From: a virus
Reading direction: 5' to 3' (one strand)
IMG/VR virus record: IMGVR_UViG_3300042549_005307
Location: 1 to 55,321 of that record
DNA: 55,321 nt
Each line of letters opens with the position of its first letter. Position 1 is the stretch's first letter. Position numbers and translations under genes: made by a program. Below are positions 32,562 to 55,075 of the stretch, one piece after another. The notes below the pieces were generated by a model. The model made no database searches, was not told where the DNA came from, and worked only from the letters and a program-made list of their open reading frames with translations.

Positions 32562-32636
32562 CGCGGGGAGGGGCGGGGGAGTAAAAGGTGTCGAACCTAA
32601 AAAATTTGATAGTGTGTCAACCTCACCCCAAACGAT
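32562..32636 (+). repeat. G-rich intergenic element, copy A
   Basis: Directly after a stop codon: GGGGAGGGGCGGGGG, then GTCGAACC, then TTTGATAGT. The same three blocks in the same order and spacing occur at 55022-55075. In copy A a downstream CCTCACCCC could pair with GGGGAGGGG. It may act as a terminator, a quadruplex or a packaging or replication site. Confidence 0.7.
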
Positions 32637-32656
32637 ATAAAAAAGTACGGATATTA

Positions 32657-32688
32657 TTTGGATATATAAAGATAATTTCGTATCTTTA
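32657..32688 (+). promoter_or_regulatory. Host-type promoter (TTTG, 20 bp, TATCTTTA)
   Basis: TTTG at 32657-32660 and TATCTTTA at 32681-32688. It serves the small-gene run starting at 32708. Confidence 0.75.
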
Positions 32689-32707
32689 TTCCAACTAAAA
32701 AATAGTT

Positions 32708-32863
32708 ATGAATAAAAGAGATAATACATTGGTATGGGTTTGCTTTGCTCTAATCGCGTGTATAAGCATTCAATTGGTTGGAACACTTCGTTTGAAGAGC
32801 CAAATTAGAGACTTGGAATCACAAGTCCTACAACTTAAAAAGAAGAATGAAGTTGGCAAATAA
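32708..32863 (+). CDS. Small membrane protein with coiled-coil tail, 51 residues
   Basis: ATG at 32708 opens 51 codons to TAA at 32861-32863. A single helix (LVWVCFALIACISIQLV) is followed by a Leu-heptad tail (LRLKSQIRDLESQVLQLKKK). It lies 20 bases after a strong promoter. The topology is like phage Rz-type or host-takeover membrane peptides. Unknown. Confidence 0.75.
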   Translation: MNKRDNTLVWVCFALIACISIQLVGTLRLKSQIRDLESQVLQLKKKNEVGK

Positions 32864-32960
32864 AATCTTACGATTTTTGTTCCGTATAGAGTTATGTACA
32901 ATCTATGATAATTATACCGGCAACATCGTTGGGTATGGAATTAGAAAACATCTGAAATGA
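32847..32960 (+). CDS. Tiny basic protein, 37 residues
   Basis: ATG at 32847 lies inside the end of the previous gene and the stop TGA at 32958 overlaps the next ATG (ATGA), giving coupling on both sides. Sequence starts MKLANKILRFLFRIELC and ends IVGYGIRKHLK. The overlaps are the main support. Confidence 0.6.
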   Translation: MKLANKILRFLFRIELCTIYDNYTGNIVGYGIRKHLK

Positions 32961-33160
32961 TAACACCAGAAGAAAAAGGAGAAGAGTTGATTGAGTTCTT
33001 TATGAACGCAGAACCACCAAAGATGAGTGATTATAGCAGGTTATATCGTCCTACGGCGATTCTATTTGCTAAAAAGGTATGTGATGAGGTGATGAGTGAT
33101 ATGGGTGCTGATAGAGGATACCAATTTTGGTATAATGTAAAACAATATTTAGATAAATAA
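32957..33160 (+). CDS. Hypothetical protein, 67 residues
   Basis: Begins MITPEEKGEELIEFFMNAEP, a start seen in small phage proteins. Helical, with AILFAKKVCDEVMSDMG. Coupled by ATGA to the gene before. No known function. Confidence 0.78.
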   Translation: MITPEEKGEELIEFFMNAEPPKMSDYSRLYRPTAILFAKKVCDEVMSDMGADRGYQFWYNVKQYLDK

Positions 33161-33164
33161 GATT

Positions 33165-33590
33165 ATGACATCAAAAGAATTTGTAGTTTGGATGCAAGGA
33201 TTTGTAGAGGCTTGTAATGATTATTCACCCACACCAAAGCAGTGGGATACCCTAAAAGATAAGTTAGGTGAAGTTAAGGATGAACCAACACACTCTATTC
33301 CGTTTGGAGTTCCAAATACTGCACCAATACAAACATTACCATTTATCCAACCATATGACCCATACAACCCATATAAGATAACTAGTGAAAGTGGTACAAC
33401 ACTAACAGTATCATCAGGTAGTAGTGGAACTATTGTAGTTACACCTGGATATGGTTCTATTACATATAATCCATCAACATCAACTGCATATGGTTATCCA
33501 AGTGGTTCTGCGTGGAATTATACATCTACATTACCACAACAACCAACGACAGGAAGTAATCAGTTAGAATTAGAATTTGAAACAAAATAG
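33165..33590 (+). CDS. Phage protein with FVVWMQGFVEA-type N-terminal helix domain
   Basis: 141 residues. The first 35 (KEFVVWMQGFVEACNDYSPT, then QWDTLKDKL) match a small helical domain common in phage proteins. The rest is a low-complexity Pro, Ser, Thr, Tyr tail with YDPYNPYK and SSGSSGT, likely disordered or fibre-like. Family known by pattern only; function unknown. Confidence 0.75.
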   Translation: MTSKEFVVWMQGFVEACNDYSPTPKQWDTLKDKLGEVKDEPTHSIPFGVPNTAPIQTLPFIQPYDPYNPYKITSESGTTLTVSSGSSGTIVVTPGYGSITYNPSTSTAYGYPSGSAWNYTSTLPQQPTTGSNQLELEFETK

Positions 33591-33592
33591 AT

Positions 33593-33961
33593 ATGAGTTA
33601 TATTAGTAAAGGTGCACAACCTACAAAGATTACGGCCGAACAATGGGGTAGAAAGGTTAGTATTGAACTACCTAATTCAGATACAGATATTCACGAGTTA
33701 TTGGATATTTTTAAAGGAATTACAATCGGATTAGGTTATTCTGAATCTGGTTGGAATAATGGTATTAAAGAAATGGCAGAATCTATTTACGAAGATGAAA
33801 ATACGGATTTAAAATATAAGTTGAGTGAGTGGAGTGATGATGAATTAGGTGAAGCGATTGCACAACATAACGCACATGAAGAAGGTTATGATATTGATGA
33901 TTATGTAGAAGGTAATACTGAAGATAATTATGATGAAGGAGGGAGGCCGATTAAGATATGA
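33593..33961 (+). CDS. Hypothetical acidic protein, 122 residues
   Basis: Begins with a strand pair (KVSIELPNSDTDIHELLDIF) and ends in a very acidic, probably disordered tail (YDIDDYVEGNTEDNYDEGG). Its stop overlaps the start of the ClpP-like gene by 4 bases (ATGA), so the two are coupled. It may be a partner or adaptor of that protease, which is inference. Confidence 0.75.
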   Translation: MSYISKGAQPTKITAEQWGRKVSIELPNSDTDIHELLDIFKGITIGLGYSESGWNNGIKEMAESIYEDENTDLKYKLSEWSDDELGEAIAQHNAHEEGYDIDDYVEGNTEDNYDEGGRPIKI

Positions 33962-34518
33962 GTGGATTATTACTACCAAAAAATAGAACCCTACACTTTG
34001 CCAAACAAGTAGAGCAATCTACGATATTGGAATTAACAAAGGGGATTATAGATATAGTTGAGGATGATGAATACTTAAAAAAATTGTATTCTATACATGG
34101 TTTAACATACGAACCTTTACCAATTAAGATATATATAGATAGTTATGGTGGACAAGTGTATCAATGTATGGGATTATTGGGGGTGATGGAACGTTCAACG
34201 ACACCAATACACACCATCGTTACGGGTGTTGCAATGAGTTGTGGTTTCTTAATCACATTAGGAGGTCATACGAGGTTTGCATACCCGACATCAACCTTAC
34301 TATATCATCAAGTTTCATCCGTATCGGCTGGAACGTTGAAGGATATAGATGATGATGTAATTGAGATGAAACGATTGCAAAAATGGATTGAAGATTTAAC
34401 TGTCCGTAGAACCCATATTAAGAAGGCAAGGTTGAAGGAAGTATATAAAGAAAAGATTGATTGGTATATCCCAGCTGAAGAAGCATTGGAGTTGGGTGTA
34501 ATTGATGAGATACTATAA
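33958..34518 (+). CDS. ClpP-like serine protease
   Basis: 186 residues. IYIDSYGGQVYQCMGL is the oxyanion-side helix; the nucleophile is Ser94 in GVAMSCGFLI, the His is His117 in LLYHQVS, and Asp168 (IDWYIPAEEALELGVID) completes the triad. Compared with bacterial ClpP, the nucleophile turn is changed (AMSC for AASM). No ClpX or ClpA partner gene is near. In phages such proteins act in head maturation or in control of host proteins; which applies here is open. Coupled to both neighbours. Confidence 0.9.
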   Translation: MSGLLLPKNRTLHFAKQVEQSTILELTKGIIDIVEDDEYLKKLYSIHGLTYEPLPIKIYIDSYGGQVYQCMGLLGVMERSTTPIHTIVTGVAMSCGFLITLGGHTRFAYPTSTLLYHQVSSVSAGTLKDIDDDVIEMKRLQKWIEDLTVRRTHIKKARLKEVYKEKIDWYIPAEEALELGVIDEIL

Positions 34519-34778
34519 TGGATAAGATAATTTTGGTTCACTACATTAATGTAGATGGAGTACCCAACAGTAATTTGGGAGAAATGATGGAAATGGTTAA
34601 GGAATCATTGGCAAAAGATGCTGATATTATTTCTTATATAGTTCCTATTAGAGATGAACCAACTCGAATTGAATGTGTGAATCCAAAGTTATTAAAAGAT
34701 AATGATGATGCATGGGATAATGTTAAGAGGATTTTAGATAGAAACCAAAAGGCAGTTGATAAATTTATAAAGGAGTAA
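34518..34778 (+). CDS. Hypothetical protein, 86 residues
   Basis: The start shares one base with the ClpP-like stop (TAATG). The sequence IILVHYINVDGVPNSNLGEM has an alpha/beta look, and the tail is helical. No match that I recognise. Its place suggests a link with the protease module. Confidence 0.75.
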   Translation: MDKIILVHYINVDGVPNSNLGEMMEMVKESLAKDADIISYIVPIRDEPTRIECVNPKLLKDNDDAWDNVKRILDRNQKAVDKFIKE

Positions 34779-34780
34779 TT

Positions 34781-35407
34781 ATGGATTTTATACATAGAAT
34801 ACCAAATTTATTATCAGAGGATTTTTGCAAAGATATTATAGAAAAATTTGAAAAATCATCATTGAAAAAAAAAGGTGCATCCTATAAAATAATAAATGGT
34901 AAAGTTATACAAGTATTAGAAGATACTATTATAGATGAAACTTTTGAAAGCAACAAAAAATCTACTGATATTTCTATATATCCAAACTTTTTATTAAATG
35001 ATGATGTTAAAAAAGAAAACTGGGATGATTTATTAGAAAAATTACATAATTGTTTGTTTTTAGGATTACAATCATATACCGATGAACATGATATTATAAA
35101 TGTGTTAGAAGCTACTGAATTAGAAGGATATAATATACAAAAATACCTACCCGGAGAGGGGTTTTTTAATTGGCATTGTGAAAATAGTGGATATGATTTT
35201 GGTGGAAGAAGATGTTTTGCTTGGATGATATATTTAAATGATGTTGAAGATGGTGGAACTGAATTTAAAGTTCAAAACCACGTTGAAAAAGCAGAAACAG
35301 GCAAGTTTGTCATATGGCCGGCATATTGGACACACGTACATAAAGGTCAAATAAGTTATACAAAAACAAAATATATTATAACTGGGTGGTTTAAACACAT
35401 TGATTAA
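34781..35407 (+). CDS. 2OG-Fe(II) oxygenase with H-x-E variant
   Basis: 208 residues. LPGEGFFNWHCENSGYD gives His132-x-Glu134 in the place of the usual H-x-D; His185 (YWTHVHKG) is the distal ligand and a Lys/Arg near 197 would bind 2-oxoglutarate. FAWMIYLNDVEDGGTEFK is the typical prolyl-4-hydroxylase core, and similar proteins are frequent in T4-like marine phages. A Glu ligand is rare but can bind iron. Confidence 0.85.
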   Translation: MDFIHRIPNLLSEDFCKDIIEKFEKSSLKKKGASYKIINGKVIQVLEDTIIDETFESNKKSTDISIYPNFLLNDDVKKENWDDLLEKLHNCLFLGLQSYTDEHDIINVLEATELEGYNIQKYLPGEGFFNWHCENSGYDFGGRRCFAWMIYLNDVEDGGTEFKVQNHVEKAETGKFVIWPAYWTHVHKGQISYTKTKYIITGWFKHID

Positions 35408-35410
35408 AAT

Positions 35411-35653
35411 ATGGAAGAAGAGAAAATAAAATGGGATGGATTTGATGGTGCAATCGTAGGAAATTGTTACTATACCAACCGATACATATATGATACAGAT
35501 ATAATGATTACTACCCTAATGACTAGAGATAGTATGAGTTATAGTGATGCTTGGGAGCATTTAGAATTTAATGTATTAAATCACCATTTAACAGATGCTA
35601 GTGGTAAATACATAACACCAATTCATTTAGTTAGAGAATACGAAATAGATTAG
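35411..35653 (+). CDS. Hypothetical protein, 80 residues
   Basis: Starts 3 bases after the oxygenase. KWDGFDGAIVGNCYYTNRYI then TRDSMSYSDAWEHLEFNVL suggests a small alpha/beta domain. It is encoded directly before the HNH-like gene. Unknown. Confidence 0.75.
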   Translation: MEEEKIKWDGFDGAIVGNCYYTNRYIYDTDIMITTLMTRDSMSYSDAWEHLEFNVLNHHLTDASGKYITPIHLVREYEID

Positions 35654-35654
35654 T

Positions 35655-36365
35655 ATGGGAAAAGATAGATTCTTTGCCAATTGGGAAGAAGATGAAGAGG
35701 ATAAATGGGAAGATGTAGACCAACCAAAAGAGGAAAAACTTACCACCGAAGAGCGTATCGAAAAGATAAAAGATACGATGATTAAGAAAAAATGGTCTAC
35801 TGGTGCATACCCACGTGGAGCAGGATTTCGTCCTATATTGGAATCTGATATATTAGATGCGCAAAACAAATCAAAATCTGGATTTGAAACTGCTAGAACA
35901 TTGGGTGTATCATATAATACCTATAAAAAATGGGCTAAAACATATGGCATATTTGAAAGAGCATTAAATCCATCTGGCATCGGTATTGTCCGTGCTAATC
36001 AAGTCCATAAAGGTGAAAACGCATTGGATATGATATTGAGGGGAGAAGGTAGACCTGATTATCCAATTGCAAGATTAAAACGCAGATTGATTACATCTGG
36101 TTACTTTGCAGAAGAATGTACCTGTTGTGGGTTTGATGAGAAAAGAGCAACCGATGGTAAAGTTCCGTTATTGTTGGATTTTTTAGATAATGAATGGCAA
36201 AACCATAAATTAGAAAATCTACGATTTTTATGTTATAATTGTTTCTTTCTATTGGTGGGTAAGAGAAAAATACCAAAAAGAGGAACTATTGTAACGCAAG
36301 GTGTGACAGACGATGGTGATGAAGATGAAGTGACAGAAGATGAATTAGAAAATACAGAAAATTAA
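35655..36365 (+). CDS. HNH-fold zinc protein with degenerate active site and HTH
   Basis: 236 residues. An acidic N-terminus is followed by a helix-turn-helix-like segment (SGFETARTLGVSYNTYKKWA, about 74-93). CTCCGFDEKR and LRFLCYNCFFLLVGK hold four zinc cysteines around the block LLLDFLDNEWQNHKLENL. In active HNH enzymes that block has D/H-H before the strand and a late His; here Phe replaces the catalytic His and no final His follows YNC. So it is probably DNA-binding only. The acidic tail may mimic DNA. Confidence 0.75.
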   Translation: MGKDRFFANWEEDEEDKWEDVDQPKEEKLTTEERIEKIKDTMIKKKWSTGAYPRGAGFRPILESDILDAQNKSKSGFETARTLGVSYNTYKKWAKTYGIFERALNPSGIGIVRANQVHKGENALDMILRGEGRPDYPIARLKRRLITSGYFAEECTCCGFDEKRATDGKVPLLLDFLDNEWQNHKLENLRFLCYNCFFLLVGKRKIPKRGTIVTQGVTDDGDEDEVTEDELENTEN

Positions 36366-36373
36366 ATAATACT

Positions 36374-36889
36374 ATGGATTTTATAATAAATAGATATGCA
36401 AATGTTTTATCTCAAGAAGAGTATAATACATTAAAAATGATTGTTAAACAGTTAAAATGGGAATACTCTGGCCAAAGTATTGAAGGTAGTAGTGGTAATA
36501 AATTTTGGTTTTCTGATTTAAGTGATAATCCATTTTTTACTGATTTTTTTTTAGAAAGATTACAAGAAATAACTAAAAATAAATATGTTTTAGATAAAGT
36601 ATATGCAAATGGTCAAACATTGGGGCAAGATGGGGGCTGGCATACCGATAGTGATTTTGATAATAGATACACTTTTTTATATTACTATAACGATTGTATG
36701 GATATATCTTTAATAGGAGATACTTATTTTAAAGATGATGATGATATACCATTAGCAGTATCACCCGTACCCAATAGTGCAATACTTTTTAATCATACTA
36801 TACCACATTATGGTGCTGCACCAAAACGAGCCTATAACGATTTACGTGTTACTATTGCATTTAAACTAACGGAAATACCAACTACTTAA
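36374..36889 (+). CDS. 2OG-Fe(II) oxygenase
   Basis: 171 residues. His90-x-Asp92 (GGWHTDSD), His141 or His145 (FNHTIPHYGAAP) and Arg152 or Arg158 give a complete site. The turn YNDLRVTIAFKL is the closing strand pair. One of six such enzymes in the window. An AT-rich inverted repeat follows its stop, then a promoter. Confidence 0.85.
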   Translation: MDFIINRYANVLSQEEYNTLKMIVKQLKWEYSGQSIEGSSGNKFWFSDLSDNPFFTDFFLERLQEITKNKYVLDKVYANGQTLGQDGGWHTDSDFDNRYTFLYYYNDCMDISLIGDTYFKDDDDIPLAVSPVPNSAILFNHTIPHYGAAPKRAYNDLRVTIAFKLTEIPTT

Positions 36890-36906
36890 AAAAAACTTAA
36901 AAAGTT

Positions 36907-36938
36907 TTTGGATATATGGAAACTTATTCGTATATTTG
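36907..36938 (+). promoter_or_regulatory. Host-type promoter (TTTG, 20 bp, TATATTTG)
   Basis: TTTG at 36907-36910, TATATTTG at 36931-36938. A weak AAAAACTT-AAA-AAGTTTTT inverted repeat just upstream may terminate the preceding gene and again overlaps the promoter. Confidence 0.78.
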
Positions 36939-36979
36939 TACAACTTAAAAATTAAAACAAATAAATAAACAAAAAAACT

Positions 36980-37189
36980 ATGGCGAAGTACTTTCAAGTA
37001 GCAGTAGAGTTACACACAGACAATGGTAAGGGTGGAACTAAAAAAGTAACAGAACAATATTTAGTGGATGCTCAATCCGTAACGGAAGCAGAAGCAAGAG
37101 TTGTTAAGGAATTTGAAGCATCTAACATTCAGTTAGAGTATAATATCAAAGGAGCGGCTCAATCAAAAATCGTAGAGGTATTTGAATAA
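36980..37189 (+). CDS. DUF4494-type protein
   Basis: 69 residues. KYFQVAVELHTDNGKGGTKK and VTEQYLVDAQSVTEAEARVV match the DUF4494 pattern found in Bacteroidota and their phages. Small ferredoxin-like alpha/beta fold expected. It shares a base with the next start, so coupled. Function unknown. Confidence 0.82.
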   Translation: MAKYFQVAVELHTDNGKGGTKKVTEQYLVDAQSVTEAEARVVKEFEASNIQLEYNIKGAAQSKIVEVFE

Positions 37190-37437
37190 TGGAAACGCAA
37201 GTTAAAGAAGAAAAGAAACTTGCACTCAAACGTGTTCCACCGGGAGATAAGTGGGTATTCGCTAATGGTTCATCCAAAGCAACATATCCATCTTTAACCG
37301 ATGGATTAGAGGCTTGGTATCAAACTAATGGCGATACTCAATTCTTTATGGATGCCAGAAAAGGCACGGTTGAAGTAGTTTCAACAATCGAAGTGGAAGT
37401 ACCACAGAAAAGATTTTCGCTATATGGCGAAGATTGA
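37189..37437 (+). CDS. Hypothetical protein, 82 residues
   Basis: Basic N-terminus (KKLALKRVPPGDKWVFANGS) and a strand-rich body. It directly follows the DUF4494 gene and shares one base with it. Not recognised. Confidence 0.74.
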   Translation: METQVKEEKKLALKRVPPGDKWVFANGSSKATYPSLTDGLEAWYQTNGDTQFFMDARKGTVEVVSTIEVEVPQKRFSLYGED

Positions 37438-37445
37438 TATTTATA
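37438..37445 (+). promoter_or_regulatory. TATTTATA box
   Basis: It starts one base after the previous stop and lies 25 bases before the ATG at 37471. Confidence 0.4.
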
Positions 37446-37470
37446 ATAGTAACCAAATAAATAAAAATAA

Positions 37471-37791
37471 ATGAATACAATTCTAATCATTCTCGCATTA
37501 GCAGCGGTAGCAGTTGGTGTGGTCTATTTCCTTACCAAAAGTGGTAAAATTAAAGACTCGGATGGGGATTTAATCCCAGATGTAATAGAGGATTCTATTG
37601 CAGAAGTAAACAAAACCTTTACAGAAACAAAGGTAAAGATTGAAAAAGTTAAGGAGCAAGTTGAAGATGTTACTAAAGCAGTTAAGAAAGTAGCCAAAGA
37701 AATGGGTGAAGTAGCTGATGTAGTACAAGGTAAAGAAGTTCCAGTAAAGAAAAAAAGACGTTATTATAAACCAAAAACAAATAAACAATAA
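37471..37791 (+). CDS. Membrane-anchored coiled-coil protein with calcium-like loop
   Basis: 106 residues. Membrane helix NTILIILALAAVAVGVVYFL, then KDSDGDLIPDVIED, a DxDxD loop like thrombospondin type-3 calcium repeats, then a coiled coil (KVKEQVEDVTKAVKKVAKEM) and a very basic end (KKKRRYYKPK). The architecture fits a virion or envelope linker. Unknown family. Confidence 0.78.
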   Translation: MNTILIILALAAVAVGVVYFLTKSGKIKDSDGDLIPDVIEDSIAEVNKTFTETKVKIEKVKEQVEDVTKAVKKVAKEMGEVADVVQGKEVPVKKKRRYYKPKTNKQ

Positions 37792-37801
37792 AACAAAAAG
37801 T

Positions 37802-37963
37802 ATGAAAAATTTATTATTCGTAGCGTTTATCGCATTAGGATTAGGATTAGTAGCTTGTGGTGAGAAAAACACAGAAGCAGCAGCAGATTCAGTTGCAGTT
37901 GATACCATAGCAGCAGATTCAGTAGCATCTGATTCAGTTGCCGTTGATTCAGTAGCTAAATAG
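37802..37963 (+). CDS. Small repeat lipoprotein, 53 residues
   Basis: ATG at 37802 opens 53 codons to TAG. Signal peptide with lipobox GLVACG (Cys19), then repeats of (A)DSVAVD. It is a short lipid-anchored, acidic tail peptide, followed by a strong terminator. Such lipoproteins can block receptor use by other phages (superinfection exclusion); that is inference. Confidence 0.78.
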   Translation: MKNLLFVAFIALGLGLVACGEKNTEAAADSVAVDTIAADSVASDSVAVDSVAK

Positions 37964-37985
37964 TTAAATCTATCTAATAATTAAG

Positions 37986-38009
37986 CCTCCCATTTTGGGA
38001 GGTTTTTTT
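37986..38009 (+). terminator. Strong intrinsic terminator
   Basis: CCTCCCA, a TTT loop, TGGGAGG, then seven T. It ends the transcript from the promoter at 36907. Confidence 0.93.
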
Positions 38010-38032
38010 ATGCAAAAATAATTAAGAAAAGT

Positions 38033-38064
38033 GTAGGAAATGTGAAATAAATTGCCTATCTTTA
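38033..38064 (+). promoter_or_regulatory. Upstream promoter of a tandem pair
   Basis: TAGG at 38034-38037, 20 bp after the TAG, then TATCTTTA at 38057-38064. The element and its leader resemble the promoter at 6388. Confidence 0.6.
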
Positions 38065-38102
38065 TAGGGTAATGAGAGTTAGATATAAAATAAAATCAAC
38101 AT

Positions 38103-38137
38103 TGGGTAAAATAACACCAAAAGTGGGTAAAATACCA
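38103..38137 (+). promoter_or_regulatory. Two direct repeats TGGGTAAAATA, 21 bp apart
   Basis: Copies at 38103-38113 and 38124-38134 lie exactly two helical turns apart, directly before the -33 box at 38138. They look like binding sites for an activator or repressor dimer. Confidence 0.5.
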
Positions 38138-38169
38138 TTTGACATTCTCAATTATTTTCACTATATTTG
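38138..38169 (+). promoter_or_regulatory. Proximal promoter of the VWA gene
   Basis: TTTG at 38138-38141, 20 bp, TATATTTG at 38162-38169, 24 bases before the ATG at 38194. Confidence 0.82.
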
Positions 38170-38193
38170 TATATACATTAAAAGATAGATACT

Positions 38194-40362
38194 ATGCTAA
38201 ACAACTTCTTCAAAGGTAAAACCGCTACGAAATCAGCCACATCTTTTTGGGCTAATGATTACGATTTAGATTATGGCTGGGATGATGGTGATGTGGATGT
38301 TCCTACGAGAACTGCTACTGAAAATTCTACCATACATTATTTAAAGTTAAATGCTCATCGTAGAGCCATTTCCAACTTCGTTAATATCCTTACCAACAGA
38401 AATATTCCTGTTAAGTTTACCGTCAAAGGTGATTCTTATACGGATGGTAAATCTGTTACTATCTCTTCCGATTTGAAGCCAGATAAGTTTGATTCTACGG
38501 TTGGTTTAGCATTGCACGAAGCATCTCATATTGTTCTTACTGATTTTGAAATCTTTGTTAATTACAAAGCAAATCCTACATTAGTTGATAAGTATTTAAC
38601 TGTTGTTGAGAATGTAGATACTGCTAATTCATCCCACCAAAGTTGGGCTAAACAACGGATTTGGGATTTAGTTAAGAACTTAACCAACTATGTAGAAGAT
38701 AAGCGTATTGACAATCACGTTTACACTACCTGTCCTGGCTATCGAGATTACTATCGTTCTTTATACGATACATATTTCAACGATGCTTCTATTGATAAGG
38801 GATTACTTTCAAATGAATATACTACGGAAACTATTGATTCTTATTTGTTCCGTATTATCAATATCACCAACCCTAACACTAACTTATCAAAGTTGCGTGG
38901 TTTAGGTAAGATTTCTAAATTGTTAAACTTAAACAATATCAAACGCATTACCACTACCCAACAGGCAGTTGAGATTGCTGAAGGTATCGTTGAGATTATT
39001 CTTCAATCTATTTCCGATGAAATGGAAGACGAGAAGAATGGTAATGGCAAGCAAGATGCACAGAATGGACCACAAGAAGATGGTGAAGGTTCTGGCAACG
39101 GACAAGGTGGTGATGGTGAAGGTGGTGAAGAAAGTGATGATGATTTAGAGGTTGAAATGGATGATTCAGAAGATGGTGATTCAGGTTCAGATTCTGGTCC
39201 ATCTGCTTCTATGAACCAACCACTTAAAGGTAAGGTTAAAGTTAAAGAATCCGAAGGTAGTGGTTCTGATAAAGGTGCTACTTTAAGTGAAGCTAATAAG
39301 AAGAAATTAGATAAAGCAATTCAAAAGCAAAAGGATTTCTTAAAAGGTGAAACTAAAAAGAAAGCAATTACTAATAAAGACGATAAAGCATTAGAACAAA
39401 TCGCTAAATCGGGTACTGAATTAGTAAATGTTGCCGGTGAAACTATTGAAGGTGTTGGTAAAGTTCCTCAAACGCAAGTAGTTGTGGTTAAGAAATTGAC
39501 AGAAGAGTTGATGAAATCGGAAAGTTTCCCATTAGCTAGAACTGATTGGAAAACAAAAGAATTAGTAGTTGATGAAATAACCTTACAAAAGGGGTTGGCG
39601 TTAGGAACTATGTTAGGCAAGAGATTGCAGGTTCGTAGTGAAGAGCGTGATACTGTCTACAATCGCCAATTAAACGGACGAATTGACCGCCGGTTAGTTT
39701 CTGCATTAGGATATGATTACCAAAATGTATTCTATACAAAAGAGGTTGATAAGTTTAAGAAAATCATTCTTCACATTTCATTAGATGCATCTGGCTCAAT
39801 GTCCGGTAACCGATGGAGACAGGCAATGACCACTACAATCGCTATCTGTAAAGCGGCTACGATGGTAAACAATTTGGATGTACAACTTTCAGTTCGTTCA
39901 ACAATTGATGGTGGCAGCTGGAACAATAACAAACCTTATATGGTGATTGCATACGATTCTCGTACTGATAAGTTTACAAAAGTTAAGCAATTAGTTGCGG
40001 CATTAGAACCCAATGGAACTACACCCGAAGGTTTGTGTTTTGAAGCAATTATGAAACACTTTACTGAATCAACAAACGATTTAGAATCTTATTTCTTAAA
40101 TATATCAGATGGTGAGCCAAACTTTGGTAATGATTCAATCAGTTATTCTCGTGATGTAGCAGTTAAGCACACCGCGGAAATGGTTAAGAGAATCAAACAA
40201 CGAGGTATTGGGGTGTTGAGTTACTTTGTATCTGATTACACACCATACGAAAGCTCAAAGCAAGTATTCTCCAAAATGTATGGTAAGGACGCTAAATTTA
40301 TTGATGTTAATGGTTTAGTTCCAATCACTAGGACTTTGAATGAATTATTTCTTAAAAAATAA
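38194..40362 (+). CDS. Metallopeptidase-like and VWA (CobT-like) protein
   Basis: 722 residues. Residues 104-112 (GLALHEASH) carry an HExxH zinc motif (His108, Glu109, His112) in an M-type peptidase-like domain. About 275-345 is a very acidic Gly/Asp/Glu linker. The C-terminal VWA domain has the MIDAS loop DASGSMS (531-537), a Thr near 610 and SDGEP (638 on). With the next gene, a MoxR ATPase, it forms a MoxR-VWA pair, as in CobS-CobT. Such pairs insert metals or remodel protein complexes. Cytoplasmic. The peptidase motif suggests an extra cutting step. Confidence 0.88.
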   Translation: MLNNFFKGKTATKSATSFWANDYDLDYGWDDGDVDVPTRTATENSTIHYLKLNAHRRAISNFVNILTNRNIPVKFTVKGDSYTDGKSVTISSDLKPDKFDSTVGLALHEASHIVLTDFEIFVNYKANPTLVDKYLTVVENVDTANSSHQSWAKQRIWDLVKNLTNYVEDKRIDNHVYTTCPGYRDYYRSLYDTYFNDASIDKGLLSNEYTTETIDSYLFRIINITNPNTNLSKLRGLGKISKLLNLNNIKRITTTQQAVEIAEGIVEIILQSISDEMEDEKNGNGKQDAQNGPQEDGEGSGNGQGGDGEGGEESDDDLEVEMDDSEDGDSGSDSGPSASMNQPLKGKVKVKESEGSGSDKGATLSEANKKKLDKAIQKQKDFLKGETKKKAITNKDDKALEQIAKSGTELVNVAGETIEGVGKVPQTQVVVVKKLTEELMKSESFPLARTDWKTKELVVDEITLQKGLALGTMLGKRLQVRSEERDTVYNRQLNGRIDRRLVSALGYDYQNVFYTKEVDKFKKIILHISLDASGSMSGNRWRQAMTTTIAICKAATMVNNLDVQLSVRSTIDGGSWNNNKPYMVIAYDSRTDKFTKVKQLVAALEPNGTTPEGLCFEAIMKHFTESTNDLESYFLNISDGEPNFGNDSISYSRDVAVKHTAEMVKRIKQRGIGVLSYFVSDYTPYESSKQVFSKMYGKDAKFIDVNGLVPITRTLNELFLKK

Positions 40363-40395
40363 TGAAAAAAAGTTCAAAAATATTTGGTAAAGACG

Positions 40396-40426
40396 TTGCA
40401 TAATTGAAATATTTTGCGTATCTTTA
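40396..40426 (+). promoter_or_regulatory. Promoter of the MoxR gene with shared upstream repeat
   Basis: TTG at 40396-40398, 20 bp, TATCTTTA at 40419-40426. The stretch 40389-40417 matches 6934-6962 with one mismatch, so these two units may be co-regulated. Confidence 0.75.
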
Positions 40427-40479
40427 TTAAACATTGAGAGAGTTACTAATTTTAAACATAAAACATAAATTCAATTCCT

Positions 40480-47157: not shown

Positions 47158-47158
47158 A

Positions 47159-47437: not shown

Positions 47438-47440
47438 GTT

Positions 47441-48891: not shown

Positions 48892-48892
48892 A

Positions 48893-48924
48893 TTTGGAAT
48901 TGTTAAATATTTTTTGTATATTTG
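48893..48924 (+). promoter_or_regulatory. Promoter giving a leaderless mRNA
   Basis: TTTG at 48893-48896, 20 bp, TATATTTG at 48917-48924. The ATG at 48929 lies where transcription is expected to start. Confidence 0.8.
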
Positions 48925-48928
48925 TTTT

Positions 48929-49135
48929 ATGGCAAAGATAAGTAATGAACCAGTAGTACCCAGAAAGTTTGAGAAAATCTATGAAGATGAACGCGAGATA
49001 ATGATATGGAAATATGATTATTCAAAGTTCACTAATGGACCAGTATCGGTTGAAATCAAATCAAAATACCAACCTTTTGAACCAAAGAAGAAGAAACCTA
49101 AAAAGGAAAAGGATAGATTCAACAGATTTTTTTAA
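48929..49135 (+). CDS. Small basic protein, 68 residues
   Basis: ATG at 48929; the in-frame TTG at 48914 lies before the -7 box and cannot be used. The product ends in a Lys-rich tail (PKKKKPKKEKDRFNRFF) and likely binds nucleic acid or membrane. Function unknown. Confidence 0.78.
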   Translation: MAKISNEPVVPRKFEKIYEDEREIMIWKYDYSKFTNGPVSVEIKSKYQPFEPKKKKPKKEKDRFNRFF

Positions 49136-49164
49136 TATGCTATATTAAATGATATTTATGTAGG

Positions 49165-49257
49165 ATGATAAATCCTATTTATATAACATTTGGAACAATA
49201 ATTGTAATTTTAATAATATTAGTTAGGATAATGTTCTGGCTATTTGATGATATATAA
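49165..49257 (+). CDS. Tiny membrane protein, 30 residues
   Basis: ATG at 49165 opens 30 codons to TAA. One helix (ITFGTIIVILIILVRIMFWL). TATTTATG lies 4 bases before. Supported only by composition and its place between genes. Confidence 0.5.
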   Translation: MINPIYITFGTIIVILIILVRIMFWLFDDI

Positions 49258-49258
49258 T

Positions 49259-49390
49259 ATGGAAATAGTATTAGATTTAATTTTTGTTGGAATATCAGTT
49301 TGGTGTGCTGTTATGTATGTAAGAAACACTAATAGAGTTATAGATGATTTGATGAAACAATTAAAAGAAAAGCAAAAAGATGAAAAGTAA
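49259..49390 (+). CDS. Small membrane protein, 43 residues
   Basis: ATG one base after the previous stop; 43 codons to TAA at 49388-49390. Helix VLDLIFVGISVWCAVMYV, then a charged coil (DDLMKQLKEKQKDEK). Overlaps the next start by 11 bases. Likely a type of host-takeover membrane peptide. Confidence 0.62.
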   Translation: MEIVLDLIFVGISVWCAVMYVRNTNRVIDDLMKQLKEKQKDEK

Positions 49391-49676
49391 ACTTACAATA
49401 GCAGGTATAGAATCTTTAAGTGCAAAATCGTTTGATGTTGGATTATCAATAACTTATGTGTTATTTGATGAGTTTTCATATAGAATTGGTTTTAAATATG
49501 ATGGTAATAAAGGTTCAATGATTATACAAAGAATATCAAACAATACATTATATGCAATTGATTGGAAATACGCAAATAAGCAAGATTACTTTGTATTATT
49601 AGAAAACCACATAAACACAAAAAGTAAATTAGTAGATACTATTTTATCAGGTATAGATTTAACATTAAACTCTTAA
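49380..49676 (+). CDS. Hypothetical protein, 98 residues
   Basis: Strand-rich start (KLTIAGIESLSAKSFDVGLS), Ile/Leu-rich. Precedes apt by one base. Unknown. Confidence 0.72.
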   Translation: MKSKLTIAGIESLSAKSFDVGLSITYVLFDEFSYRIGFKYDGNKGSMIIQRISNNTLYAIDWKYANKQDYFVLLENHINTKSKLVDTILSGIDLTLNS

Positions 49677-49677
49677 A

Positions 49678-50184
49678 ATGAATTACAAAGAAAAAATTAC
49701 AGATGTGCCAAATTGGCCAGTTGATGGTGTTATGTTTCGTGATATTACACCTCTATTAGCAGATTGGGAAACTCTTATGATGGCAATGGATGATTTATCT
49801 ATTATCGTAGATTCTATACCTGCAAACTTTATTGCTGGAATTGAAAGTAGGGGTTTTATATTTGGTGCAGGTATTGCCTCATTAAACAATATGGGATTCG
49901 TTCCTGTTCGTAAAGCTGGAAAACTACCACCACCCGTTGTTGGTATTGATTCCACAAAAGAGTATGGACACGAATATTTGGAAGTAAAGGAAGGTAGTGG
50001 TGATATTGTGATTGTTGATGATGTATTGGCAACTGGTGGAACTTTAATAGCAACCGAACAATTACTTACAGAGGCAGGATATAATGTGTTAGGAGCAATT
50101 GTTTTGATTGACTTAACTTATTTGCACGATGAAATTCTTATTGGTGGAAAGCCAGTTCAATCTTTAATTACATACAATGAGTAA
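49678..50184 (+). CDS. apt: Adenine phosphoribosyltransferase
   Basis: 168 residues, near the family length. FRDITPLL (N-terminal hood), AGIESRGFIFGAGIA (base site), VRKAGKLPPP and VIVDDVLATGGT (PRPP loop with two Asp) are all present. It makes AMP from adenine and PRPP. It overlaps the nucleosidase gene by 8 bases, so the two are probably one salvage module that releases adenine and re-uses it. Confidence 0.95.
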   Translation: MNYKEKITDVPNWPVDGVMFRDITPLLADWETLMMAMDDLSIIVDSIPANFIAGIESRGFIFGAGIASLNNMGFVPVRKAGKLPPPVVGIDSTKEYGHEYLEVKEGSGDIVIVDDVLATGGTLIATEQLLTEAGYNVLGAIVLIDLTYLHDEILIGGKPVQSLITYNE

Positions 50185-50725
50185 GCATATTATATTATTT
50201 GTGGCATTAGAAAGTGAACTACCAAAGGAATTAGTTCCACCAAATGTAAGTATATATTATACAGGAGTAGGTAAAGTAAATGCTGCAATCAAAGCAACGG
50301 AGGTTTTATCAGGTTTGTTGCCTAATTTTAATGCAATTGTACTAAACTATGGTTCGGCAGGTTCAAATACAATTCCAAAGGGAACATTAGTAGATTGTAA
50401 ACATTTCATTCAAAACGATATGAATACGCCATTTGCACCAAATCACGGGACACCATTTGATGAGTTAATATATCCAGAATTAAAAGAACCTATATTAGAT
50501 TTTGGTAGTGGGTATGTGTGTAGAACACAAGATAAGTTTGAAGATAATCCAGTTGGTATATTTGATATGGAAGCTTATTCAATTGCCAAAGTGTGTAAGA
50601 TGTATGGATTTGATTTTACCGCCTATAAATACATTAGTGATGCAGGTGATTCAACAGATTGGGAAGAGAATCACAGAAAAGGAACATATTTATTTTTAAA
50701 ACAATTAAATTATTTATTATTATGA
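50177..50725 (+). CDS. Purine nucleosidase/phosphorylase-like enzyme, short
   Basis: 182 residues; MTAN/PNP relatives usually have about 230. YYTGVGKVNAAIKATE and LNYGSAGSN form the base and ribose site; IFDMEAYSIAKVCKMY carries the catalytic Glu and YISDAGD the base-contacting Asp. Likely reaction: release of adenine from a nucleoside or nucleotide. With Apt it would rebuild AMP. The shortening lies in the strands after NYGSAG. Confidence 0.82.
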   Translation: MSKHIILFVALESELPKELVPPNVSIYYTGVGKVNAAIKATEVLSGLLPNFNAIVLNYGSAGSNTIPKGTLVDCKHFIQNDMNTPFAPNHGTPFDELIYPELKEPILDFGSGYVCRTQDKFEDNPVGIFDMEAYSIAKVCKMYGFDFTAYKYISDAGDSTDWEENHRKGTYLFLKQLNYLLL

Positions 50726-51366
50726 TAAAAAAAATTAAAGTTGATAAAGAATATAGTGATATATTGCAAGAATTATTATTACATAATTCTTATTTTTCCT
50801 GGTATTATAATGAAAAAACCGTTTTGATACCTAATAATGCAGATGATACAACATATGGTATATTGTTAGATAAAAATGTAAAAGAAACACCACAACTTAC
50901 GCATACTTTTTGCAAACAAAATGGTGAAAAATCTGATAATTTTCATTATTTAATTGAATTATTGGATATTATAAAAGAAAATTTTGGTCCTATAAAAAAT
51001 ATATTAAGAATAAAATCAAATTTATTGTTAAAAAACGAATGTTATTCAAAAAATTCATACCATCCTCCACATATTGATTGGCGAGATGATTCTAATGATT
51101 ACAAAAAAATTATATCTGCATTATATTATGTAAATAATAGTGATGGAAATACTATTTTTTTTAACGAATATCTTACACCCAACTTTAATTTTGAAAATAC
51201 ACAATTAACAATTCAAAAAGAAATTACACCAGAATCTGGAAGTTTATTGGTTTTTAAATCTAATCAATTTCATACATCTAAACCACCAATATTAACTGAC
51301 AGGCGAGTTGTTATAAATTTTATTTTAGAAATGGAAAATGATATTGAAGATACACAACTTTCATAA
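50722..51366 (+). CDS. 2OG-Fe(II) oxygenase
   Basis: 214 residues from the ATG at 50722, overlapping the previous stop by 4 bases. His117-x-Asp119 (YHPPHIDWRD), His184 (NQFHTSKPP) and Arg194/195 complete the site; SALYYVNNSDGNTIFF is the core strand. Sixth such enzyme in the window. Confidence 0.85.
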   Translation: MIKKIKVDKEYSDILQELLLHNSYFSWYYNEKTVLIPNNADDTTYGILLDKNVKETPQLTHTFCKQNGEKSDNFHYLIELLDIIKENFGPIKNILRIKSNLLLKNECYSKNSYHPPHIDWRDDSNDYKKIISALYYVNNSDGNTIFFNEYLTPNFNFENTQLTIQKEITPESGSLLVFKSNQFHTSKPPILTDRRVVINFILEMENDIEDTQLS

Positions 51367-51676
51367 GTTAGAAACACCAAAACTAACAATTGGAATGTGG
51401 GATTTGAGGGAAACAACAAGTGATACCGATTTCTATGGTGCATACTTTTATCATAAAAATATAGTTACTAAATCCCAATGGCCATATCCTCACATTGAAG
51501 CAGTAATCAACCGATATAAAGTTGATGAGTTGGGTTATCAAATAGAAATAAAGCTGTGGGAAGAATGGGGTCAATGGGATAGTTTGTTTGAAGCATTTGT
51601 GGAAAAGGATGCTATAAGTAATAAAGATAAATTTTTAGATATAATTAGTGATAGTATTAAAGTAATTCAAATCTAA
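51338..51676 (+). CDS. Hypothetical protein, 112 residues
   Basis: Starts MILKIHNFHKLETPKL, like the next gene and the gene at the window end (MLTI-N). Strand-rich with aromatic residues; overlaps the previous gene by 29 bases and shares one base with the next. Unknown. Confidence 0.72.
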   Translation: MILKIHNFHKLETPKLTIGMWDLRETTSDTDFYGAYFYHKNIVTKSQWPYPHIEAVINRYKVDELGYQIEIKLWEEWGQWDSLFEAFVEKDAISNKDKFLDIISDSIKVIQI

Positions 51677-52032
51677 TGCTAACCATAAATAACTTTGAAA
51701 AGCTAGATGGATACCAAGATGATAAACTACGAATAAGTGGGGTGTTTGAATATACTGATGTATATAAAATATTTGTAGACTATGCTATCTCATTTGAAAA
51801 TATAAACATCTATATTACTATAAATAGAAATAAACGAACAGATGTAGACCTAAAGTTCCCACTTGATAAAACGCCAGTATATAATACAATGATTGAACAA
51901 AGACTCGTAAAGGGTGTAAATGGTGGTGTTAAACGAAAGGATTTGGGTATAAAAAAGAAAGCATTAGAGAGTAGTGATAATATAATAAAAGCAATAAAGG
52001 AGATGCTAGATGATTTTGTAAATGAACGATGA
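51676..52032 (+). CDS. Hypothetical protein, 118 residues
   Basis: Starts MLTINNFEKLDGYQDDKLRI. Strand-rich then Lys-rich helical end. Similar in its first 16 residues to its neighbour and to the last gene in the window. Coupled by ATGA to the lipoprotein gene. Unknown. Confidence 0.73.
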   Translation: MLTINNFEKLDGYQDDKLRISGVFEYTDVYKIFVDYAISFENINIYITINRNKRTDVDLKFPLDKTPVYNTMIEQRLVKGVNGGVKRKDLGIKKKALESSDNIIKAIKEMLDDFVNER

Positions 52033-52643
52033 AAAAGTTACTGATATTTTTACCTATATTACTATTGGCGTGTATCAAAGAGCCAGAATATATAGTACCA
52101 GCCCCACCCCCATATAATTTTACATTCCAATTAGATTCTGCTTTAAATGGTAGTGGTACTCGTGCTTTGGTTAAAGATAATGCAGGGTATTATCATATAA
52201 AATTATCTGAATATACATTTCAGACGTTTAGCCGTATCACCGGAAAATTTTTGTGGAATGGTAAACCAAATCCTAGACCATCACCCGTTGAATGCTGGAT
52301 AGAGTGGAAGAGTTCACACTATTGGGTCTTAAATAATAAAACAAATCTATTTATAGTATATAAAACCTATTTCAATGAATTTACTGGAAAGCTAACAACA
52401 TCGGAGTTGGGTACATTCAAATCACAGTCAAACCAACTAATACCAACCGTCAATGGTTCATCTTACCCATCATCAACCGATGGCAGTATAAATACGGTAT
52501 TTGCTCCAATATACTATATGATAGGAGATACTATAACAATAACTGCAATAGCACATATTCGTAAGGAAATACCAACATCCAAATTATTTGTGATAAGTGT
52601 GAAGGATTCATTAGAAAGAAAAGTAAGATTTATTTGTGAATAA
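52029..52643 (+). CDS. Lipoprotein, 204 residues
   Basis: Signal with lipobox FLPILLLACIKE (Cys15). The mature part starts with a Pro-rich linker (YIVPAPPPYNFTF) and is a strand-rich domain ending VRFICE. Typical Bacteroidota lipoprotein; the linker suggests surface exposure. A role at the host surface, such as blocking other phages, is inference. Confidence 0.8.
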   Translation: MKKLLIFLPILLLACIKEPEYIVPAPPPYNFTFQLDSALNGSGTRALVKDNAGYYHIKLSEYTFQTFSRITGKFLWNGKPNPRPSPVECWIEWKSSHYWVLNNKTNLFIVYKTYFNEFTGKLTTSELGTFKSQSNQLIPTVNGSSYPSSTDGSINTVFAPIYYMIGDTITITAIAHIRKEIPTSKLFVISVKDSLERKVRFICE

Positions 52644-52664
52644 TAAAAAAATTTAGTATATTTG
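52633..52664 (+). promoter_or_regulatory. Host-type promoter (TTTG, 20 bp, TATATTTG)
   Basis: TTTG at 52633-52636 is inside the end of the lipoprotein gene; TATATTTG at 52657-52664. Confidence 0.8.
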
Positions 52665-52684
52665 TGTAATAAAAAAATTAAATT

Positions 52685-53002
52685 ATGGAAGTTAAATACG
52701 CAACGATTGCAACCAAAGACCAGGAAGATGGTAGAGTATTAGTAAAACACATTTGTGTTTGGCAAGATGAACCGTCGGAGGATGATGTTAAAAATTTAGT
52801 TAAAGAACTTTGGGAAAGGCCAGAATGGGCTATGGTTGAGGATGATGATTATGATTTGGTTAATTTAGAAAGAACCGAAGAGAACGAACACATCTTTGAG
52901 CAACTGAATATACCAAAACAAATTACAGAACAAACGGAAGAAACAGAGGTAGTTGCTAAACCAAAGAAGAAGGCAACTCCAAAGAAGAAACCAAAAAAGT
53001 AA
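52685..53002 (+). CDS. Hypothetical protein with Lys/Pro-rich tail, 105 residues
   Basis: Acidic N-terminal domain (HICVWQDEPSEDDVKNLVKE) and a basic tail (KPKKKATPKKKPKK) like histone tails or DNA-binding linkers. Follows a strong promoter by 20 bases. Unknown. Confidence 0.76.
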   Translation: MEVKYATIATKDQEDGRVLVKHICVWQDEPSEDDVKNLVKELWERPEWAMVEDDDYDLVNLERTEENEHIFEQLNIPKQITEQTEETEVVAKPKKKATPKKKPKK

Positions 53003-53009
53003 GCAGATT

Positions 53010-53318
53010 ATGTCAATTAATTTTGAAGATATAAATAAAAGATTAGATGATTTTTTAGAGAAAAATACATCAAAGAAAGAACGTACTTTTAGGCAGTTTG
53101 AACCAATCGGCGATGATGATTATGTAGTAGAGTTTCCAAAAGGTCCTACCACCACCTACTATACTGTAAAAAAGGATACATACAACAAACTGAAAGCTGA
53201 TACTATAAAGGAGCTGAATACAATAGATGACAAAAACGAACTGCGGGCAGTTGAGTTGAGGACAGTGCTTGTGATGTTAGAATGGATACACACCGAACCA
53301 AATGAAAAAGAAATATAG
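53010..53318 (+). CDS. Hypothetical protein, 102 residues
   Basis: ATG at 53010 (MSINFEDINKRLDDFLEKNT); a longer frame start at 52953 lies inside the previous gene. Helical N-terminus, then a strand pair with FPKGPTTTYYTVKKDTYNKL. Overlaps the nucleotidyltransferase by 17 bases. Unknown. Confidence 0.74.
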   Translation: MSINFEDINKRLDDFLEKNTSKKERTFRQFEPIGDDDYVVEFPKGPTTTYYTVKKDTYNKLKADTIKELNTIDDKNELRAVELRTVLVMLEWIHTEPNEKEI

Positions 53319-53643
53319 TTTGTTTATAGGTAGGTGGCAAGTTTGGCACGAAGGTCACCAATGGTTAATACACCAACAATTCCAAAAGGGTAAGAATGTG
53401 TGGATAGCCATACGGGATGTGGACAGAGATAAAGATAATCCTTATTCAGCTAAAGAGATATTAGATAATCTAACAAATGAGTTGAGAGCGTATTTAGCAA
53501 CTGGTAGGTTATTGATTTCAATTATACCTGATATTGAATCTATAAATTATGGCAGGGGTGTAGGTTATGATGTAATATACCACGAACCACCGGAGGATAT
53601 AGCAAACATTAGTGGAACTAAAATTAGAAATGGTCAATTATAA
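53302..53643 (+). CDS. Cytidylyltransferase/NMNAT-like nucleotidyltransferase
   Basis: 113 residues. GRWQVWHEGHQWLI carries the HxGH motif (His16 to His19) and ISGTKIR (103-109) the second motif; IPDIESINYGRGVGY matches a phage family I recall as linked to adenylylsulfate kinase N-termini. It transfers a nucleotide to a phosphate or sugar-phosphate. The DUF2061 gene follows, a neighbour known from sulfate-activation loci. Substrate not settled; NMN is possible. Confidence 0.85.
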   Translation: MKKKYSLFIGRWQVWHEGHQWLIHQQFQKGKNVWIAIRDVDRDKDNPYSAKEILDNLTNELRAYLATGRLLISIIPDIESINYGRGVGYDVIYHEPPEDIANISGTKIRNGQL

Positions 53644-53845
53644 AAGACATATACTAAAATCAATTAGCTATCGTATTTTAGGTACGTTTATAACAATTTT
53701 ATTGGCTATTTGGGCTGGATTGCCTATAAAATGGGCTGGAATTGTAGGTGTTGGGGAATTGATAATAAAACCCATAGTATATTTCTTACACGAAAGATTT
53801 TGGTATAAGTGGATTAACTATGGTATAACTAATAAAATGAAATAA
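53630..53845 (+). CDS. DUF2061 membrane protein
   Basis: 71 residues from the ATG at 53630. KRHILKSISYRILGTFITIL, GIVGVGELIIKPIVYFLHER and W-Y-K-W match DUF2061: two membrane helices and a conserved HER. Overlaps the nucleotidyltransferase by 14 bases. In bacteria DUF2061 often lies near CysC-type genes. Function unknown. Confidence 0.88.
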   Translation: MVNYKRHILKSISYRILGTFITILLAIWAGLPIKWAGIVGVGELIIKPIVYFLHERFWYKWINYGITNKMK

Positions 53846-53856
53846 TAGAGTTAATT

Positions 53857-54087
53857 ATGAATGAGACAACAATAGATAAATTCAATCAGTTCTATGAGAA
53901 TGGTGGTTATGATGCCTATATGAAAATGATTCAGAAATCAAAGACCAACAACATAGATAAGCAAAGTGAAATGACAAAGTATCTGGCTGAAATCTATATG
54001 GATTTTGTAAGAGCAGAAGGTAAGGTGAATGTTAGTATGATGCGAGTTTTCATCGCCATCACCGCACAATTTTTCGGAGAGATATAA
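53857..54087 (+). CDS. Hypothetical protein, 76 residues
   Basis: Helical (IDKFNQFYENGGYDAYMKMI, then MRVFIAITAQFFGEI). It starts 11 bases after DUF2061. Unknown. Confidence 0.74.
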   Translation: MNETTIDKFNQFYENGGYDAYMKMIQKSKTNNIDKQSEMTKYLAEIYMDFVRAEGKVNVSMMRVFIAITAQFFGEI

Positions 54088-54099
54088 AACAATAAGAAT

Positions 54100-54387
54100 A
54101 TGAAGAGTAAAAATGATGTATTAGCAGCCCTATACACTATGGGTATTATTGGGTTCATTACCCTAATCATTACATTCAAAATACTAGTCCTATGGCTATT
54201 GGTAGGTATTGCAGGGTTTGGTTGTATTAACATTACCATTCTTTTATGGGATACCATTAGGTATGGGTTGGATGCAAAGGATAAGAAGAAGAGAGAGGAG
54301 AGATTGAAAGAAATGATGGAGGATGACCAAAAGTTGGGGTTATATGATTTTGATATGGATGAAAACGATAAAGCTCAAATAGGATAG
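54100..54387 (+). CDS. Membrane protein with charged tail, 95 residues
   Basis: Two helices (LYTMGIIGFITLIITFKILV and WLLVGIAGFGCINITILLW), then an acidic and basic cytoplasmic tail. Next gene starts 1 base later. Unknown. Confidence 0.77.
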   Translation: MKSKNDVLAALYTMGIIGFITLIITFKILVLWLLVGIAGFGCINITILLWDTIRYGLDAKDKKKREERLKEMMEDDQKLGLYDFDMDENDKAQIG

Positions 54388-54388
54388 A

Positions 54389-55012
54389 ATGGGGCAATTA
54401 ATGGATGGGTGGAAAAAATGGGAGGAGTTGCAAATGAAGAGCGATATGATGATGGCTAATATCAACATGCAACGAGAAATATTAGAGATACACAAAGAAA
54501 TGTGGGATAAGCATAATAATAAAAATCAGATGGAAGAGAAGCAAACGAAGTTAAACATCCAAAACATCCAAAAGCTGGAAAATCAACGATTGGTAGATAC
54601 TTCATACTATCCTATTATAGATACCATAGAAGAGAAGGATTATGAGTATGTATTCAATATATTACTAAATGATGGATTGGGTATTACGCAACTTAAAAAG
54701 ATTAAAATTAAGTTGCAAAGAAATAAGCAATTCACAAACGAGTATGGTGAGAATTATTATAGGGCGTATTATGGAGACACGGGTCAGCTTGATAGTATAA
54801 GTTCAAAGTGTATATCGAATCCACAATCTTTCAAAGCCAAATTGATGGAAATGATTGGTTTGGATGCAGTTGATTTTTCTAATATTACCAAACCTATAAA
54901 TGCATGGGGTGGTCCTACACACTCAATAGCTTATTTTACAGATACAAATTCGGTAAGTGGTGGTGATTCGGAAAAGCTACAAACATTGAGTGATTTCTTT
55001 AATAATATATAA
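54389..55012 (+). CDS. Coiled-coil protein, 207 residues
   Basis: N-terminal half is a Met/Lys/Glu coiled coil (WEELQMKSDMMMANINMQRE). The C-terminal half is mixed (GENYYRAYYGDTGQLDSISS). Followed directly by the second G-rich element. Not recognised. Confidence 0.75.
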   Translation: MGQLMDGWKKWEELQMKSDMMMANINMQREILEIHKEMWDKHNNKNQMEEKQTKLNIQNIQKLENQRLVDTSYYPIIDTIEEKDYEYVFNILLNDGLGITQLKKIKIKLQRNKQFTNEYGENYYRAYYGDTGQLDSISSKCISNPQSFKAKLMEMIGLDAVDFSNITKPINAWGGPTHSIAYFTDTNSVSGGDSEKLQTLSDFFNNI

Positions 55013-55021
55013 ACAACCGCA

Positions 55022-55075
55022 GGGGAAGGGGCGGGGGTAGGAAACGAAGTCGAACCCTAAATTTTTTGATAGTAT
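55022..55075 (+). repeat. G-rich intergenic element, copy B
   Basis: GGGGAAGGGGCGGGGG, then GTCGAACC, then TTTGATAGT, in the order and near the spacing of copy A at 32562. Both copies begin within 9 bases of a stop codon. Confidence 0.7.

Follow-up and report, generated by a model that had tools for sequence, protein, structure and literature searches.

A three-block DNA element found at gene ends and module borders in phages with Bacteroidota-type promoters, and its possible role as a polar protein-docking site

The virus record IMGVR_UViG_3300042549_005307, a 55,321-bp stretch of DNA with 33% G+C that was analysed at its full length and is referred to here as the window, contains two copies of a G-rich element that belongs to a family of sites of approximately 45-55 bp. 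We conclude that this element is a real, previously undescribed DNA signal of phages with Bacteroidota-type promoters, and we could match it to no described control system. Copies are present both between genes and within the coding sequence of a family-A DNA polymerase, where the element is under constraint at the nucleotide level. We tentatively propose that the element is a directional binding site for a putative phage protein that would act as a polar roadblock from one side, a reading that, on the sequence evidence, we rate at somewhat less than an even chance. The main genes of the window lie on the + strand and its promoters are of the Bacteroidota TAnnTTTG type; a GenBank search with the window DNA found no related phage.

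The initial annotation of the window had described the element as present twice, each time right after a stop codon and preceded by unrelated genes, and had taken its conservation in AT-rich DNA as a sign of function. Both copies, on the + strand, were found at the places described and with the same order of blocks. Copy 1 (N-type, 32562-32613; R1 47.7 bits, R2 25.3 bits) follows the stop codon TAG at 32559-32561 and reads GCGCGGGGAGGGGCGGGGG..GTCGAACC..TTTGATAGT, with the G-tract GGGGAGGGGCGGGGG at 32565-32579, the GTCGAACC block at 32590-32597, of which GTCG is the near-invariant part across the family, and the TTTGATAGT block at 32605-32613. Copy 2 (b-type, 55022-55073; R1 55.5 bits, R2 40.2 bits) lies beside arrays of small open reading frames (ORFs); the stop codon TAA at 55010-55012 and a 9-nt gap are followed by the G-tract GGGGAAGGGGCGGGGG (55022-55037), the GTCGAACC block (55049-55056), and the TTTTTTGATAGT block (55062-55073). 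Both copies thus follow stop codons, but GCGC precedes the start of copy 1, a gap of nine bases separates copy 2 from its stop, and the conserved part of copy 1 ends at 32613 rather than at 32636, as had been annotated. The preceding genes are indeed unrelated: copy 1 directly follows a gene encoding a DNA/RNA non-specific endonuclease (PF01223; 31899-32561, +), whereas copy 2 is preceded by an ORF of unknown function without a Pfam or PHROG match (54389-55012, +), whose one relative found, in L105, also has the element after its gene. The combined pattern GGGGCGGGGG-N6..16-GTCGAACC-N2..8-TTTGATAGT occurs twice in the window and in none of 100 dinucleotide-preserving shuffles. Taken alone, GTCGAACC and TTTTGATAGT, with one mismatch each, occur at about the frequency expected by chance, and separate 8- to 10-mers are not unusual.

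A starting search of a viral collection with a two-block pattern returned 22 matches, two of which were AT-rich and relevant; the family was then built with relaxed patterns, and approximately 90 contigs, all of them metagenomic, were examined in full. Members possess three fixed blocks separated by variable spacers, with the consensus GGGGC(T)GGGG, 4-15 nt, GTCG, approximately 10-20 nt, an A/T stretch, and TTGATAG(T); the number and length of the G-runs differ among copies. Among viral contigs, 59 distinct copies are embedded in an uninterrupted reading frame that matches Pfam DNA_pol_A, and the frame across the element reads EGAGVKVDREKFIDS; a further 57 distinct copies, bearing the same blocks, lie between genes, and the gene upstream of them stops either shortly before the element or within it. 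With profile R2, one to four copies per contig were detected in nearly all contigs tested. Forward copies are invariably on the sense strand; most copies lie between a stop codon and the next start codon, several abutting the start codon (GATAGTATG). In one group of contigs, the blocks coincide with the final part of an unrelated gene, and the peptide that they specify there is a different one, KGLGDEEVDS*. Homologues of the nuclease gene in other phages mostly end without an element, and two more carry a variant after the stop codon.

Since the sets of 59 and 57 copies were gathered with the motif itself, they cannot alone demonstrate synonymous constraint, and a motif-free protein search was therefore performed. 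A polymerase protein query against contigs chosen only for their nuclease or element genes yielded 22 homologues of 35-92% identity, and 21 of these were placed in a codon alignment in which synonymous identity was scored in every 15-codon window (452 windows). The top 12 of the 452 windows all overlap the element, with a synonymous identity of up to 0.93 where 0.51 was expected, compared with a gene-wide value of 0.57 observed and 0.43 expected. Thus, the element is the site of the strongest synonymous conservation in the whole polymerase gene. Of the 20 sequences with valine at the GTCG position, 19 use the codon GTC, despite the AT-rich genome, and AAA TTT ATT GAT AG(T/A) hardly varies. In the more distant polymerases GTCG and TTGATAG are retained, but the G-tract is weak or missing. 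The synonymous windows, the use of GTC, and the near-constant AAA TTT ATT GAT AG(T/A) together establish that the polymerase element is under nucleotide-level constraint. The polymerase has only distant relatives in GenBank, and in the three polymerase regions checked no such motif was seen. The view of the initial annotation that conservation reflects function is strongly supported by this constraint and by the presence of copies in many phages.

The element also occurs in the opposite orientation. A longer, reversed variant reading GGGGGTTGGGGG..GTCGTTTTTTAAAGAAAATTTTT..TATCTCTATTGATAG was found on the opposite strand in 11 contigs with profile R2 and in a twelfth with profile R3, located between two genes, often shortly before a start codon and in some contigs beside a promoter. 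In these 12 contigs its position is consistent, 7-10 kb downstream of the last forward copy, which it faces. The simplest explanation of its use in both orientations is that the signal is a site in DNA, and we conclude that the element is probably a DNA signal with a direction.

The arrangement of the sites is most apparent in G004 and G016, two genomes with sizes of 245 kb and 238 kb, which are coded almost wholly on one strand and possess exactly three forward copies and one reversed copy each, at matching map positions. Counted from the polymerase copy, the remaining forward copies lie at 27.7/27.0% and 47.7/47.2% of the two genomes and the reversed copy at 51.1/51.4%. The polymerase copy is located where tail and other large genes give way to replication genes, encoding a gp32-like single-stranded DNA-binding protein (SSB), an exonuclease, a DnaB-like helicase, and ribonucleotide reductase; the interval from the last forward copy to the reversed one contains a second border between structural and non-structural genes. 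The element sites thus mark module borders, a conclusion that is kept after the skew control described below. Some further features of these large phages were recorded. The tRNA cluster of G004 continues from the end of the record to its start, a sign that the record is probably complete and circular; the same genome contains a GOLLD RNA. Relatives of approximately 240 kb contain more than 20 tRNAs and a phage tmRNA each (L546, 864-1273; L524, 18753-19123; L545, 15902-16275; tRNA clusters in L546 and L525), and a gene of the Mom DNA-modification family (L522, 7697-8497) lies near the replication genes of G016.

In the reading that we tentatively prefer, a phage-encoded protein would recognise the three blocks of the element, and the bound protein would block RNA polymerase or replication forks coming from one side; such a block would serve as an insulator between the structural half of the genome and the replication and accessory half, or would set where forks meet. 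The sequence, positions, orientation and constraint of the element, and its lack of RNA pairing, come from sequence analysis, and from these we infer the bound protein and the one-sided block. Several points weigh against this proposal. Some contigs of approximately 100-320 kb that possess the nuclease gene have no convincing copy, and no reversed copy is detectable in the available sequence of the close relatives of the window (G000-G002). Furthermore, the reversed copy represents essentially one homologous locus, and its orientation is opposite even though the direction of transcription is unchanged, which makes it a poor fit to a pure transcription stop. This misfit, together with a skew control that weakens the replication version, is the reason for our caution. 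If true, a polar roadblock would show how large phage genomes coded in one direction separate their halves or organise their replication. A cis-acting signal that is common to different phage groups, is kept at silent positions of an essential gene, and recurs where genes and modules meet speaks for a control system, and as the element is short, searchable, and at known places, its function is directly testable.

A rather unlikely alternative is that the element is a fork trap of the Tus-Ter kind or another replication-axis site (KOPS/Chi-like), with the forward copies on one arm, the reversed copy on the other, and forks meeting between the reversed copy and the forward copy that it faces. 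The geometry of the two large genomes is consistent with such a site: measured from the polymerase copy, the convergent copies (47.2/51.4% and 47.7/51.1%) lie on either side of the approximate midpoint of the genome, the orientation of the element flips where the direction of transcription does not, and the genes for the polymerase, the gp32-like SSB, the 5'-3' exonuclease, and the DnaB-like helicase lie at the opposite pole. GC skew appeared to strengthen the case, as all 11 contigs examined, which are homologous genomes, have the maximum of detrended cumulative skew between the convergent copies, a position that for one of them (G007) had been predicted beforehand. In G016 and G042 the polymerase copy is 1.3 kb away from the skew minimum, but in G004 and G006 the two are not close. 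The arm-to-arm difference, however, arises at codon position 2, is smaller and of opposite sign at position 1, and vanishes at four-fold sites (G016, G004, and G025); it therefore reflects the protein classes of the two halves rather than the replication strand. A replication terminus deduced from GC skew, which had looked strong, was accordingly dropped as evidence for replication; the element may still be a replication site, as suggested in the initial annotation, but the skew support for this failed its control. The fork trap also has to rely on a single reversed locus. That the phages encode a polar roadblock system of their own is likewise rather unlikely; in it, a phage protein on three or four sites of approximately 50 bp, with a convergent pair roughly opposite the replication genes and one copy in the polymerase gene, would halt replication forks, or all polymerases, from one side and so provide a phage-borne fork trap or genome-domain insulator.

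It is quite unlikely that the element serves a homing endonuclease or another recombination system as a target, or is the scar of one, with the DNA-polymerase gene as the main target and the intergenic copies as landing sites or remnants. Phage homing endonucleases often aim at DNA polymerase genes (PMC2988022), borders of exchange in other phages carry nucleases (PMC10448857), and the copies lie at gene borders where neighbours vary between phages. A small GIY-YIG nuclease gene is located between the convergent copies in seven of 11 blocks (L527, 9707-10021; L511-L516 and L520), but it is missing in the other four and was not detected in the window or in G002. Moreover, the target of an endonuclease is not expected to be kept at synonymous sites, and gene adjacency shows no reduced conservation where the element is present, compared with ordinary junctions. 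In a control that covered 42 loci, there was a shared upstream gene at 24 of 51 element junctions versus 327 of 570 ordinary junctions (p = 0.18), and a shared downstream gene at 23 of 31 versus 327 of 610 (p = 0.03), the latter in the direction opposite to that of a hotspot. A gene-shuffling hotspot resembling promoter early stem-loops (PeSL), which looks convincing in the pairs L125/L161 and L111/L167, received no support from this control, nor did the recombination site that had been among the annotated possibilities.

We consider it highly improbable that the element acts in RNA between cistrons, as a processing, pausing, or translation-coupling signal, despite the location of most copies between stop and start codons, several of them at the start codon, and the constant sense orientation of forward copies. 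RNAalifold predicted no pairs in an alignment of 42 sequences and three weak pairs without compensatory change in 18 sequences, the reversed copy occupies a fixed place, and the polymerase copy is internal to a reading frame. An intrinsic transcription terminator was rejected, as neither alignment contains a conserved G+C-rich hairpin before a U-run; these results, with the reversed copy, speak against both the RNA structure and the terminator of the initial annotation. An Rfam search of the window gave no family match at the elements; its sole match in the window, above the gathering score, was DUF805b, a cis-regulatory RNA, at 9516-9548, here in a phage record. A replication start based on a G-rich R-loop or quadruplex, in which a G-tract is followed by an A/T stretch, has a similarly slim likelihood. 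Sense-strand G-tracts followed by an A/T-rich block are indeed present in most copies, among them those polymerase copies that lie closest to the replication genes, but G-runs differ in number and length, copies in the most distant polymerases have lost the G-tracts and retain GTCG and TTGATAG, and four-fold sites carry no origin signal. The variable G-runs and the loss of G-tracts also speak against the quadruplex proposed at the outset.

Other candidates were also weighed. A packaging site (pac/cos), likewise considered initially, is disfavoured by the distance of 44-46 kb between terminase and the nearest copy in G004 and G016, the exception being one other phage group (L360), in which the element lies approximately 0.5 kb upstream of the terminase genes. 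A tRNA or tmRNA remnant was suggested by the resemblance of GGTTCGAC to a T-loop, but ARAGORN found none in the window; mimicry of the 16S decoding site (AAGTCGTAAC) was dropped because only GTCG is constant; signals of diversity-generating retroelements or group II introns were considered, but there are no matching flanks; and the content between convergent copies, which where inspected looked broadly alike from phage to phage and made up of ordinary shared phage genes, argues against the ends of a transposon or miniature inverted-repeat transposable element. A host chromosomal site (dif, Ter, parS, or Chi) was rejected, as a scan of bacterial genomes from 84,980 species, which covered one strict pattern (GGGGCTGGGG form) and not other forms of the site, revealed no excess: 17 GC-rich matches versus approximately 12 estimated by chance, none of them in AT-rich Bacteroidota. 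Five Phycisphaerales contigs (L547, L552, L556, L560, and L561) contain a GC-rich sequence, ACCCCCCTCCCTC..GGGGCTGGGGGAGGGTCGAAACGCCC..TTGATAGG, at several places in the genome, which is probably an unrelated repeat of its own.

Additional features surround the two copies in the window. On the 3' side of copy 1 are a Bacteroidota-type promoter-like sequence recognised by eye (TTTG..TATCTTTA; 32657-32688, +; repeat families D5/D6) and a 51-aa ORF (MNKRDNTLVWV...; 32708-32863, +) that is also present in L013 and L021. Copy 2 is followed by the start of a small ORF (MLTIRNIDKIVGK...; 55195-55321, +) that runs off the contig end and resembles small ORFs after the element in other phages. Elsewhere in the window, four promoter-like leaders of approximately 87 bp (6359-6445, 6911-6997, 38004-38090, and 40366-40452) are 61-79% identical to a reference copy and apparently lie immediately upstream of genes, an ORF at 4573-6171 contains long 12/24-bp repeats (Ala-, Lys-, and Ser-rich) with locally 40% G+C, and two tandem genes at 28358-29583, 614 bp apart, share approximately 80% identity across long segments.

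PeSL and start-associated sequences of other phages are likewise short, conserved, and located between genes at their borders. Unlike these, the element described here has no stem-loop and no consistent promoter, is not always adjacent to a start codon, and also occurs in coding sequence. It resembles the homing-endonuclease sites of phage DNA-polymerase genes (PMC2988022) in occupying polymerase coding sequence, but it has copies outside the polymerase, its synonymous constraint suggests a benefit, and no endonuclease is consistently linked to it. The Tus-Ter system provides a second analogy, in that the element is likewise polar and forms, in two genomes, a convergent pair roughly opposite the replication genes; in contrast to Tus-Ter, no Tus-like protein has been identified for it, and the support from skew failed the codon-position control. 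To our knowledge, its sequence is unrelated to Ter sites. The stoperators of mycobacteriophage Cluster A (L5 type) are asymmetric sites in short intergenic gaps, mostly in one orientation with respect to transcription, that are present several times per genome and are similar but not identical between phages (PMC6550527; PMC9283540). Stoperators are 13 bp long, number more than 20 per genome, and are bound by the phage immunity repressor, whereupon elongation stops; the element, by comparison, is approximately 45-55 bp long, occurs one to four times, has no known repressor, and differs further in having a copy inside the polymerase frame and a reversed copy in a genome transcribed one way. Stoperators are nonetheless the closest working analogy, as the forward copies of the element, unlike the reversed copy, are asymmetric sites in short intergenic gaps that are oriented with transcription.

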